From contig NZ_JAUNDY010000009.1 of assembly GCF_030525845.1 (NCBI RefSeq), forward strand, positions 1-55,773: 55,773 bases of DNA, read 5' to 3'. Source of the DNA: Moraxella sp. (GTDB lineage: Bacteria > Pseudomonadota > Gammaproteobacteria > Pseudomonadales > Moraxellaceae). Both the position numbers and the translations under genes were made by a program. The notes beneath the pieces were generated by a model that ran no database searches, was not told the origin of the DNA, and saw only the letters and a program-made list of their open reading frames with translations. Of the stretch, positions 21,471-33,713 are shown piece after piece; within the stretch, counting starts at the first letter, position 1; every line of letters starts with the position of its first letter.

Positions 21471-21484
21471 CCCCCCCCCCCCCC
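21471..21484 (+). repeat. homopolymeric C14 tract (candidate phase-variation repeat)
   Basis: Fourteen consecutive C residues, the longest homopolymer seen in the window, sit 71-84 bp upstream of the SBP1 start codon. A perfect 8-bp hairpin follows at once: GCCAAATC (21485-21492), 7-nt loop, GATTTGGC (21500-21507). Tracts of this length slip readily during replication, so length should vary among cells. Confidence 0.9.
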
Positions 21485-21554
21485 GCCAAATCCACACATG
21501 ATTTGGCAATGTCGTCTCGTGCAAACACGGGCATTCATCCACAAGGATATTTTC

Positions 21555-22403
21555 ATGAAACTTAAACTTTTATCTTCTGCACTGCTTGGCATTGCTTTGC
21601 TTGTAGGTTGTGGTGGCGATAACAATCAAGCAAATACCGCCACCCCCAGCGAATCTGCCGCACCAGCCGAACAAGCCAATATGGCAACTTATAATGTAGG
21701 TAGCCAAAGTGCCTACCCTCCATTTGTGTTGCTTGACGAAAAAGGCAATCTTGTCGGTCTAGACATCGATATCCTAAAAGCCATCGGCGAAAAACAAAAC
21801 ATTAAGTTTAATTTCGTATCTGAGGGTGCTCGTGGTATCGTTGATTTGCTACAATCGGTTAATAAAGGCGATATTGACATATTGGCGACAGGGATTAACA
21901 TCACCGAATCACGTCTAGAAAATAATGATTTTAGCAAACCTTATATCAATGGTTCTTGGGCTGTCTTACTGGATAAAGATACCAGTGGTCAGGTAGGCTC
22001 TTTTGAGGAATTATCAGGCAAACCCATCACTGTGCAAGCAAACAGCTATTCACACACCCAGCTGGATAACACCAACATCACAGATAAGGCTGTCCCAGTA
22101 GACACGCTATATTTGGGACTAAAAGAACTCAAACAACAAAAGGCGGTTGCACTCTATGATGTGGATATCGCCCTAGCACCCTACCTAGAAGATAGCAGTC
22201 TTTATACCATCAAAGACACCAAATCTGGCACCATTCCTGTCGGCTTTGCCCTCAAAAAAGGCGATACCGAGCTAAAAGCAAAACTGGATGCTGGTCTTGA
22301 ACAAATCAAGCAAGACGGCACTTATGATAAAATTCTCGCCAAATGGCTAAACCAAGCTGCCACAGACATCGCCAAAACATCATCAGAGTCACAAGCTCAG
22401 TAA
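21555..22403 (+). CDS. solute-binding lipoprotein, family 3 (SBP1, amino-acid ABC type)
   Basis: A 282-residue protein starting at ATG 21555 after AAGGAT. It has a lipoprotein signal with lipobox 'LLVGC' (Cys19), a low-complexity Ala/Ser/Glu linker (20-42) and a family-3 periplasmic binding domain: 'SAYPPFVLLDEKGNLVGLDI', 'DILATGINITESRLE', and C-terminal 'DGTYDKILAKWL'. It should bind a polar amino acid or similar solute. No ABC permease or ATPase gene is adjacent. The upstream C14 tract suggests variable expression. It is paralogous to the gene at 30970-31815. Confidence 0.88.
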   Translation: MKLKLLSSALLGIALLVGCGGDNNQANTATPSESAAPAEQANMATYNVGSQSAYPPFVLLDEKGNLVGLDIDILKAIGEKQNIKFNFVSEGARGIVDLLQSVNKGDIDILATGINITESRLENNDFSKPYINGSWAVLLDKDTSGQVGSFEELSGKPITVQANSYSHTQLDNTNITDKAVPVDTLYLGLKELKQQKAVALYDVDIALAPYLEDSSLYTIKDTKSGTIPVGFALKKGDTELKAKLDAGLEQIKQDGTYDKILAKWLNQAATDIAKTSSESQAQ

Positions 22404-29582: not shown

Positions 29583-30818
29583 ATGGAATTTAGTACAGCA
29601 TTTGGTGGTGTCGCCATGTTTACCGCCATCATCATGAGTTTGGTTGTGGTCATTTTGATCGCCCGCTCACGATTGGTAAGCTCTGGCAAGGTAACCATCA
29701 ATATCAATGATAATCCTGACAATAACGTAACCACAGCCGCAGGGGGCAAGTTGCTCCAAACCCTAGCTGGCGAAGGCATTTTCCTATCGTCTGCCTGTGG
29801 TGGTGGTGGTACTTGTGGTCAATGCCGTTGTAAAGTCTTGGACGGTGGTGGTTCTATTTTACCTACCGAAGAAGGTCATTTTACCCAAGGCGAGATTCGT
29901 GATGGTATGCGTTTGGCATGTCAGGTGGCAGTCAAGCAAGACATGAAAATCGAGATTGACCCTGAATTCTTTGATGTCAAAAAATGGGAATGCGAAGTTA
30001 TCTCCAACGACAACGTTGCCACCTTCATTAAAGAACTCACGCTCAAAATCCCAGAGGGCGAAGTCGTGCCTTTCCGTGCAGGCGGTTATGTTCAGCTTGA
30101 AGCACCACCGCACGAAGTTCACTACAAGGACTTTGACATTGATCCAGAATATCACCCTGACTGGGACACCTTTAACTTGTGGCGTTACACCTCAAAAGTG
30201 GACGAGCCTGTGATTCGCGCCTATTCGATGGCAAACTACCCCGAAGAAAAAGGCATCATCAAGTTCAACATTCGTATCGCGTCTCCACCACCTCGTGGTC
30301 CTGAGGGCATTCCCCCAGGCAAGATGTCATCTTATGTGTTTAGCTTAAAACCAGGTGATAAGATTACCGTTTCTGGTCCTTACGGCGAATTCTTTGCCAA
30401 AGAAACCAAAAACGAGATGGTATTCATCGGTGGTGGTGCAGGTATGGCACCCATGCGTTCACACATCTTTGATCAACTAAAACGCCTAAAATCCGACCGT
30501 AAGATTAGTTTCTGGTACGGTGCTCGCTCTAAGCGTGAAATGTTCTACGTGGAGGACTATGACGGTCTGGCGGCAGAATTCCCCAACTTTGAGTGGCATG
30601 TAGCACTCTCTGACCCACAACCAGAGGACAACTGGGAAGGTTATACAGGCTTTATTCATAACGTCCTGTATGACAACTACCTAAAAGACCATCCTGCCCC
30701 AGAAGACTGTGAGTTCTATATGTGTGGTCCACCGGTCATGAACGATGCGGTCATCAAAATGCTCAAATCTTTGGGTGTAGAAGATGAAAACATCATGCTT
30801 GACAACTTTGGTGGTTAA
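29583..30818 (+). CDS. nqrF: Na+-translocating NADH:quinone reductase subunit F
   Basis: A 411-residue NADH-oxidising subunit: one N-terminal membrane helix, a 2Fe-2S ferredoxin domain with cysteines in '[16 protein letters not shown]' and a later 'RLACQVAV', then FAD ('RAYSMANYP') and NADH-binding ('[13 protein letters not shown]', '[12 protein letters not shown]') modules. It ends with the conserved 'LDNFGG'. It is the last gene of the operon and is followed by a strong terminator; neither apbE nor nqrM follows it. Confidence 0.97.
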
Positions 30819-30834: not shown

Positions 30835-30870
30835 AAAAAAATCCGTTCAAGACATTGGGCGGATTTTTTA
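30835..30870 (+). terminator. nqr operon terminator
   Basis: A long stem (about 14 bp including two G-T pairs) between AAAAAATCCGTTCAA and TTGGGCGGATTTTTT with loop GACA, 17 bp after nqrF. Confidence 0.93.
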
Positions 30871-30915: not shown

Positions 30916-30942
30916 TTGACAACAGGGGGGGTTGTTTATAAT
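30916..30942 (+). promoter_or_regulatory. SBP2 promoter with a G7 tract in its spacer
   Basis: A perfect TTGACA (30916-30921) and a perfect TATAAT (30937-30942) are separated by only 15 bp. Seven of those spacer bases are an uninterrupted G run (30925-30931). Gain of two G would give the optimal 17-bp spacing. This is the classic layout of promoter-strength phase variation, as in meningococcal porA. Variability itself is inferred. Confidence 0.75.
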
Positions 30943-30969: not shown

Positions 30970-31815
30970 ATGAAAAAAGCACTTACCCCCCTACTATTGG
31001 CACTTATTTTGACCGCTTGTGGCAACGACAACCCAGCTCCCACCGACACCACCCAAACTGACACCACAAAACCTGCCGACACCACCAAAAAATACAGCGA
31101 AGAATACGTGATAGGCATCGATATTGGCTCGCCACCGTTTAGTTTGCGTGATGAGCTGGGTCAGGCAACAGGCTTTGAAGTTGACATCCTAAAAGCCATC
31201 GGCGATGACCAAAACTTTGGCACTACCTTTCTTGGCGAACCACGTGCAAAATTGTATCAAGACATGGAAGATGGCAAATATCAAGTCATTGTTGCCTCCT
31301 TGGAAATCAACCCAAACAATGAAGCCAAATTTGACATGACAAATCCTCATGCCAAAAGCTACCGTGCTATTTTAAGTCGTCAGGATAAAAAAGCCCAATC
31401 ATCTGCTGATTTGATTGGTGGAGGCTTGGTGGGTGTACAAGAAAACACCGTCAGTGCTAAATCCCTGACAGACATGGGGGCAAAAATCCAAGAATTCCCC
31501 AATCTATACACCAATTTTCAGGCATTTGTCCGCAAAGAAACCGACTTTTTGGTGGGTAACGCTGTACCCCTAAACTATTACATCAAACAATACCAAACCG
31601 AAAGCAATCAGCAAAGCATGGGTGATGTCATCATGACTGCCTATGACAACCCCATTCAAATCAATCATATCGCCTTTGGGGTCAGTAAAAACAACGAAAC
31701 CCTAAAAAACAAAATCAACGCTGGTCTTGCCAATATCCAAAACAACGGTAAATACGATGAAATCTACCAAAAATGGTTTGGCGATGATGATACCGCCAAA
31801 ATAGAAACCAAGTAA
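30970..31815 (+). CDS. solute-binding lipoprotein, family 3 (SBP2)
   Basis: A 281-residue protein starting at ATG 30970. It has lipobox 'LILTAC' (Cys17), a Thr/Asp-rich linker (18-42) and a family-3 binding domain with 'GIDIGSPPFSLRDELGQATG', 'FEVDILKAIGDDQNF' and C-terminal 'NGKYDEIYQKWF'. It is paralogous to SBP1 at 21555-22403, and like it has no permease or ATPase gene beside it. Ligand unknown; amino acids are the usual substrates. Its promoter spacer carries a G7 tract. Confidence 0.87.
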   Translation: MKKALTPLLLALILTACGNDNPAPTDTTQTDTTKPADTTKKYSEEYVIGIDIGSPPFSLRDELGQATGFEVDILKAIGDDQNFGTTFLGEPRAKLYQDMEDGKYQVIVASLEINPNNEAKFDMTNPHAKSYRAILSRQDKKAQSSADLIGGGLVGVQENTVSAKSLTDMGAKIQEFPNLYTNFQAFVRKETDFLVGNAVPLNYYIKQYQTESNQQSMGDVIMTAYDNPIQINHIAFGVSKNNETLKNKINAGLANIQNNGKYDEIYQKWFGDDDTAKIETK

Positions 31816-31886: not shown

Positions 31887-33713
31887 TTATCTCCCATGCA
31901 ATGTATTATAAATCGTCTTCGCCAAAACTTTGCCGATGCCTTTGACGTTGGCAATTTCCTTTTGAGATGCTCCAAGTAGCTGGCTGATGCCGCCAAAATG
32001 AGCAAGTAAATCTCGCCTGCGTTTTTCTCCCAGATTGGGAATGACTTCTAGCACAGATGAGCCTCGTGCTTTATCTCGTTTTTTACGATGAGCGGTAATG
32101 GCAAATCGATGAGCTTCGTCCCTGATGTGCATAATCAGGTGTAGTGCCTTGTTATCGGCTGGCAAATCTATCGGCTCATGATTGATAAAATGAAGCACTT
32201 CTAGTCCTGCCTTTCGCCCCTCCCCTTTGGCAACACTCACCAACAAAACCTCATCTGCTTTTTGTAGTTCACATAATACCTCAAAGGCGACATTTAGCTG
32301 TCCCTTACCTCCATCAATAAGCAATAAATCAGGCAATGGATACTTGCTATATCGTCTCATCAAGACCTGCCTCATCGCCCCATAGTCGTCGCCACCGACC
32401 ACGCCTTGTATGGCGTATTGGCGATAATCTCGATTTCTAGCCCCTCGCCCATCAAACACCACGCACGACCCCACCGCCATCTCGCCCATCGTATGACTGA
32501 TGTCAAAACACTCAATGCGGTTAATGGGTTTGTCCCACACCTTTGCAAAGATGTTTTGCATGGCTAAAAAACGCTCATTTAATTCATAAAAATTAGATAA
32601 TTTGGAAGTTAGGGCGTTATTGGCGTTTAATATTGCAAGCTCTTGCCATTCACGGCGATGTTTTTGGACGCTAGATTTGATGATGGTTTTAGCCCCAAAA
32701 TGCTCACCAAGTAGCTGGGCGATTACCTCTTTTTCTACCAATGCCTCACTGACGATAATCTCTTTGGGTAACTCATCACTGACCTCCCCATAAAACGACA
32801 ACAAAAACCGCTCCAAACGCTCATCTAGCGTATCGCACATCGCCACATCATCAGGAAAATAATTCTTCCCTCCAAGCACCCAACCGCCACGCACCGTCAG
32901 TACATGCACCGCTGTCAAGCCATGATTATGACAGATGGCGAACACATCGGCATGACTGTCTTCATCGCCCACACGATGCACCGCCTGCTGTGCTGTGATG
33001 TCCGAGAGCATGGCGAGGCGGTCTCGATAAAATACCGCCTGCTCAAAACGCAAATCTTCGGCAGCCTCGTGCATTTTTTGGGCGAGCATGGTTTGCAATT
33101 TCCCTGACTTACCATTTAAAAAATCAATGGTCTGCTCCACACTCTCCCCATAATCCCCCTGCTCAACCAATCCCACACATGGTGCCGAGCATCGCCCAAT
33201 TTGATGTTCAAGGCAGGGGCGTTTGGCATTGGCAAACACACGATTATTACAATTTCGAAGCATGAATAATTTTTGGATAAGAAGCATGGCTTCTTTGGCA
33301 CTATTTGCTGAGGGGTAAGGTCCAAAAAACCGCCCCTCTGCGTGATTGCCCCTGCCACGCCCCACACCAATTCTGGGGAATTTATCTTTGGAAATAAACA
33401 AATAAAGATAGGATTTATCGTCCCTTAAAATGATGTTATAAGGAGGACGATGTGTTTTGATGAGATTTTGTTCAAGTAGCAGTGCCTCAGCTTCACCACG
33501 TGTGATGATGATTTTAATGTCGCAAATACGTGCCACTAGTGCTTGTGTTTTTGGATGATCGATGGTTTTGGCAAAATAACTACTCACACGATTTTTGAGT
33601 GATTTGGCCTTACCGACATACAAAATTTCCCCCGATTTACCCAGCATTTTATAAACTCCTGGCAGATTGGGGAGGTTTTTTAGGACTTGGATAAGATGGT
33701 CTGAGTGATTCAT
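31887..33713 (-). CDS. uvrC: excinuclease ABC subunit C
   Basis: A 608-residue nucleotide-excision-repair nuclease that makes both incisions. Domains in order: GIY-YIG nuclease ('[20 protein letters not shown]', 17-36), a cysteine cluster ('[13 protein letters not shown]', about 167), UVR/UvrB-binding helix (about 205-240), RNase H-like 3' nuclease ('[20 protein letters not shown]' and '[11 protein letters not shown]') and two C-terminal helix-hairpin-helix motifs. Normal length. Confidence 0.97.

Follow-up and report, generated by a model that had tools for sequence, protein, structure and literature searches.

A G7 tract within the promoter spacer of a solute-binding lipoprotein gene of Moraxella sp. 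as a candidate expression switch

The window, by which we mean the whole 55,773-nucleotide stretch of Moraxella sp. DNA that was analysed (contig NZ_JAUNDY010000009.1), contains a gene for a solute-binding lipoprotein, SBP2, whose neighbours are nqrF and uvrC, with no permease or ATPase gene next to it (Table 1). The name SBP2 is a label from the first reading of the sequence and does not imply identity with Moraxella catarrhalis SBP2. Upstream of the gene lie a TTGACA and a TATAAT hexamer, each matching the consensus at 6/6 positions, with 27 bp between the latter and the ATG, and a run of seven G makes up 7 of the 15 positions of the spacer that separates them. The original prediction of perfect hexamers 15 bp apart, a G7 run filling nearly half of the spacer and a solute-binding lipoprotein downstream was borne out, with coordinates and counts all correct and the protein matching the SBP_bac_3 (PF00497) profile at 100.7 bits against a curated cut-off of 26.4. 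The promoter is one of two perfect TTGACA-N13-21-TATAAT sites listed for the window; it is absent from the output of an automated promoter scan because that scan accepts spacers of 16–18 bp only. The inverted repeat 3′ of nqrF is likewise missing from the scan output, which covers repeats with loops of 3–8 bases.

Table 1. Features of the window and tract-bearing PF00497 genes on other contigs of the same genome.
Feature	Position	Strand	Basis or remark
C14 tract in leader of SBP1	21471..21484	+	
8-bp perfect hairpin GCCAAATC / GATTTGGC	21485..21507	+	immediately 3′ of C14
SBP1	21555..22403	+	second PF00497 lipoprotein in window
nqrF	29583..30818	+	upstream neighbour of SBP2
Inverted repeat AAAAAATCCG / CGGATTTTTT	30836..30869	+	14-base loop, 3′ of nqrF, terminator-like by eye
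-35 hexamer TTGACA	30916..30921	+	sequence
Spacer ACAGGGGGGGTTGTT (ACA-G7-TTGTT, 15 bp)	30922..30936	+	sequence
G7 homopolymer	30925..30931	+	sequence
-10 hexamer TATAAT	30937..30942	+	sequence
SBP2	30970..31815	+	family-3 solute-binding lipoprotein (PF00497); 281 aa; lipobox LTAC, last residue Cys17
C6 run	30986..30991	+	within SBP2 signal-peptide codons
uvrC	31887..33713	-	downstream neighbour of SBP2, convergent
G14 in 17-bp promoter spacer of PF00497 gene	C42		
C11 after lipobox of PF00497 gene	C8		out of frame as assembled
C9 after lipobox of PF00497 gene	C19		out of frame as assembled
G9 in signal peptide of PF00497 gene	C19		in frame

SBP2 has the lipobox cysteine and is 40% and 38% identical to two paralogues and 27% identical to SBP1 in alignment. 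Among the matches listed from 98 other genomes identity was at most 33%, and a protein query of species-collection contigs returned 18 loci in distant bacteria at 22–30%. All plasmid matches fell below 60% identity, the five listed standing at 27.7%, and no second copy was found in genome contigs or viral contigs, collections that may omit the window's own or very near genomes. Nor did any of the 19 relatives with an nqrF match carry SBP2 within 1.5 kb of it (2 of 21 gave no nqrF match).

In HisJ/LAO-type proteins the amino-acid backbone is held by the TxER arginine and by an aspartate in the second lobe. Among 17 aligned paralogous sequences, SBP2 included, the arginine column of this motif, which is also found in solved relatives of SBP2, holds Arg in 15 and Asp in one, with Asn117 in SBP2. 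The second-lobe position (Asn197 in SBP2) was rejected as telling and says little, because the column is Asp in just 10 of the 17. The identity of SBP2 as a binding lipoprotein is supported by its PF00497 match. Its description as nutrient-binding is made uncertain by the Asn at the TxER position, and its ligand may be other than an ordinary amino acid.

Across 22 genomes of the genus, the perfect TTGACA-N13-21-TATAAT pattern gave 395 matches, against 53 for the reversed pattern. Spacings were listed for 150 of the 395, drawn from seven genomes (one of them in part, with the genome of the window, hereafter the focal genome, excluded); 16 bp was found 75 times, 17 bp 29 times and 18 bp 10 times in this list, which counts orthologous promoters repeatedly and enters one place twice with two readings. 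The reversed control in the same seven genomes yielded 22 matches over 9 spacings, which puts the background near 2.4 for each. Spacers of 15 bp are also present (5 of the 150 listed perfect promoters in relatives), and the SBP2 promoter, at 15 bp, is therefore one base below the commonest spacing. Addition of one G to the tract would bring it to 16 bp, the mode of the list, and of two to 17 bp, so that both gains would reach the two commonest spacings listed in relatives. The claim that slippage would strongly raise transcription of SBP2 is strengthened in its premise, an off-optimal 15-bp spacer against a 16-bp mode; the gain in transcription itself we infer.

Poly-G tracts occupy the spacers of five further promoters in the focal genome. 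On contig C42, TTGACA-AAT-G14-TAAAAT (17 bp) lies ~190 bp 5′ of another SBP_bac_3 gene, and on C32, TTGACA-AAAAT-G12-TAGAAT (17 bp) precedes a short frame that matches no family. Two adjoining Opacity-porin genes on C30 have alike promoters with different tract lengths, namely TTGCAA-ATCTCA-G9-A-TATAAT, of 16 bp, and TTGCAA-ATCTCA-G15-TAGAAT, of 21 bp. On C11 a G14 run stands between TTGC and TACAAT, 20 bp apart, 5′ of a gene whose 303-residue product matches no family. In three of these tract promoters the hexamers, TTGCAA and TTGCGG, were chosen by eye.

The 16 to 21 bp spacers of these remaining tract promoters bear on one alternative, according to which the short 15-bp spacer of SBP2 is offset by an activator whose binding site includes the G run. 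Some activators do correct abnormal spacers, usually long ones of 19–20 bp; at SBP2, no regulator gene adjoins (the neighbours being nqrF and uvrC) and no operator-like repeat was seen by eye, and we regard regulation of this kind as improbable.

With the other five tracts ranging from G9 to G15, the G7 of SBP2 is the shortest of the six compared, and 27 G/C runs of exactly seven, taken here as a count, occur in the focal genome. Both observations would fit a fixed weak promoter, in which the G7 is static or decayed, too short for frequent slippage, and merely keeps SBP2 low. Against this, the longer tracts at the equivalent position in a paralogue and in the opacity genes suggest that such tracts lengthen in this organism. 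Published tracts give a mixed picture of what seven residues can do: for Campylobacter, seven is the lower cut-off and the isolate evidence quoted for C. jejuni NCTC 11168 covers tracts of at least 8 (PMC6321876), whereas the poly-G tract of M. catarrhalis mid/hag varies naturally and includes a population with 6 repeats (PMC7302503), and transcription of T. pallidum tprJ requires an upstream poly-G of ≤8 (PMC3373638). In view of the last two cases G7 is not obviously too short, and a fixed weak promoter appears to us rather unlikely.

The G7 run by itself is unremarkable. The window holds 9 overlapping seven-mers, 8 of them from a single C14, and 13 of 100 shuffles reach 9. The commonness of short runs in the genome, and the reversed matches to the perfect hexamers, which set a background for such pairs, would both accommodate a chance meeting of G7 and consensus hexamers at a promoter that is not used. 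Their combination is a different matter: TTGACA-N1-6-G7+-N0-10-TANNNT occurs 3 times in the focal genome and once each in two of the 21 other genus genomes, while the reversed pattern has 0 matches in all 22, which makes a chance origin of the placement unlikely. Rough arithmetic from 60 runs of at least seven, 22 perfect promoters and ~10 positions gives ~0.007 such coincidences expected in the focal genome. Furthermore, the SBP2 hexamers lie at the right distance from the ATG, and the terminator-like repeat after nqrF speaks against dependence on read-through. Taken with these points, a chance meeting is highly improbable.

Hexamer pairs were also scored around the 33 G/C tracts of at least 8 in the focal genome (66 tract-strands, a set that leaves the focal G7 outside), in enrichment tests devised after the data were seen. 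Pairs with at least 10/12 matches and a spacer of 15–19 bp accompanied 3 of the 66 tract-strands (random placements, 0.33%), and pairs with at least 9/12 accompanied 7 of 66 (random, 3.4%); at 8/12 or more the count (14 of 66; random, 15.6%) showed no real excess. That the excess is small or absent at the two weaker thresholds speaks against the switch reading. The total of 33 is high and not unique, another genome having 37. A switching role for all of the long tracts was rejected, as several of the 33 lie in or beside ordinary RsmJ/RlmJ-, PgpA-, CycH- and NIF3-like genes or near contig ends.

Several other sites were noted in passing. A C11 run (L088, G000:C13, 1498-1508) lies where an Eco57I/MmeI-like DNA methylase gene splits into two frames, possibly making this a phase-variable methyltransferase. 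Tracts of C13–C14 (L097, G000:C16, 1495-1508; L095, G000:C16, 1496-1508; L104, G000:C25, 1496-1508) stand upstream of a PF13407 binding protein, a LytTR response regulator and a DegV protein, the C14 of the PF13407 sugar-type binding protein being ~110 bp 5′ of its ATG; perhaps these form a second, leader-type class of tract. Another genus member has TTGACA-ATGC-G8-TGA-TAAGAT on the minus strand 5′ of a frame whose product, judged by eye, looks secreted (L153, G101:C20, 1501-1527). A stretch near a contig end (L098, G000:C18, ~1480-1570) is very G+C-rich against the 44% G+C of the window, possibly through contamination or an assembly artefact.

The focal genome has 19 PF00497 matches, comprising 17 whole domains and one broken gene; at 1e-10, each of the 21 remaining genus genomes gives between 0 and 11. 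Five of the 33 runs of at least 8 fall at the 5′ ends of PF00497 genes, where 0.16 would be expected (18 genes × 500 bp, the 18 being the 17 whole domains and the broken gene). A Poisson estimate gave P values of 7e-7 and 3.6e-6 for intervals of 500 and 700 bp, respectively, under an assumption of uniform placement, post hoc and with interval lengths and a gene set of the analysts' choosing. With the focal G7 there are thus six candidate tract genes in the family, two with the tract in a promoter spacer, one in a leader and three in the reading frame.

The leader case is SBP1, for which folding gave z = -2.28, with 6 of 200 shuffles folding as well. A possible promoter, TTGCAA-17-TAAAAT, was seen by eye just 5′ of its C14; if this is the SBP1 promoter, the tract lies near the transcript start.

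In the relatives, 1 of 79 PF00497 matches (15 genomes) had a run of at least 8 within 700 bp 5′ of the domain, at 562 bp, and a second lay at 932 bp; none of 20 further PF00497 5′ regions fetched from 5 genomes contained such a run, one C7 being found inside a domain. With 1 of 99 matches in relatives having a run of at least 8 within 700 bp upstream, a link between tracts and solute-binding proteins as a genus-wide trait was rejected.

Matches to the permease family TIGR01726, the only permease family searched, number 2 in the focal genome, a single pair on C1 beside three solute-binding protein genes; permeases were possibly missed, given a genome completeness of 93.65%. Within the reach of this search, the 14 solute-binding protein genes away from the C1 pair are orphans.

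These observations lead us to a reading that we hold with moderate confidence: the SBP2 site would be a sigma-70-type promoter of an orphan lipoprotein gene, held by its G7 tract at a sub-optimal 15 bp, raisable by slippage, and one of six such candidate loci. At this spacing the tract would keep the promoter in a low state, and slippage that adds one G (16 bp) or two (17 bp) would raise SBP2 transcription; we infer that the gene can be so raised because these gains reach the commonest spacings listed. The original prediction of a phase switch is partly backed by the promoter architecture, by a paralogue with G14 at the equivalent spot and by four further paralogues with long tracts.

Similar or longer runs at several sister genes suggest that these binding proteins may form a group switched at random, the purpose of which could be diversity in antigens or in ligand range. 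More tentatively, and on tract evidence from one genome, we propose a possible phase-variable repertoire of orphan solute-binding lipoproteins, in which 6 of the 17 PF00497 genes would be independently tract-switched beside a single detected permease pair. Some members, SBP2 among them, lack a canonical ligand residue; these might act as variable antigens or decoys, or bind other ligands, in place of or in addition to sharing the permease. Variable expression of these proteins would be relevant because the solute-binding proteins of M. catarrhalis are described as vaccine antigens of promise (PMC4938438). If the proposal is right, the nutrient-binding or antigenic coat would differ between cells, and spacing is predicted to determine SBP2 expression.

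Phase variation is best known from adhesins, porins, surface sugars and methyltransferases, and the outer-membrane protein genes porA, fetA and opc are well-established cases. In these three Neisseria meningitidis genes the stretch that separates -10 from -35 holds an unstable homopolymer, which is thought to affect sigma-factor binding (PMC2791445), and the SBP2 homopolymer occupies the same position as in such contingency loci. SBP2 differs from them in encoding a solute-binding lipoprotein, in the shortness of its G7 and in being known from one genome. P48 resembles transporter-binding lipoproteins. For a p48-like lipoprotein gene of Mycoplasma agalactiae, a poly-G phase-variation mechanism has been proposed (PMC2824730); SBP2 is likewise a lipoprotein gene with poly-G, whereas the p48-like tract lies in the reading frame of a single gene in an unrelated bacterium, the two being set apart here by description.

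Closer relatives offer two comparisons. In M. catarrhalis 195ME, uspA1 mRNA differs 21-fold between G10 and G12, its upstream poly-G tract altering transcription as proposed for SBP2; in contrast to SBP2, uspA1 encodes an adhesin, and its tract is described as upstream of the gene, with no mention of the -35/-10 spacer (PMC7302503). The M. catarrhalis sbp1-sbp2-sbp3 ABC system has amino-acid-binding lipoproteins (PMC4938438) and is matched in the focal genome, by description, by the three-gene group beside the permeases on C1, unlike the focal SBP2, which lies outside that group. Phase-variation candidates already include transporters in N. meningitidis (PMC5084427) and, for M. catarrhalis, a hypothetical permease (PMC7302503). 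Our literature search, in which other wording could miss a case, found no example of family-3 solute-binding lipoproteins controlled as a set by poly-G/C tracts. The type of switch is already known from porA, opc and fetA; its use on a set of orphan binding proteins looks new.
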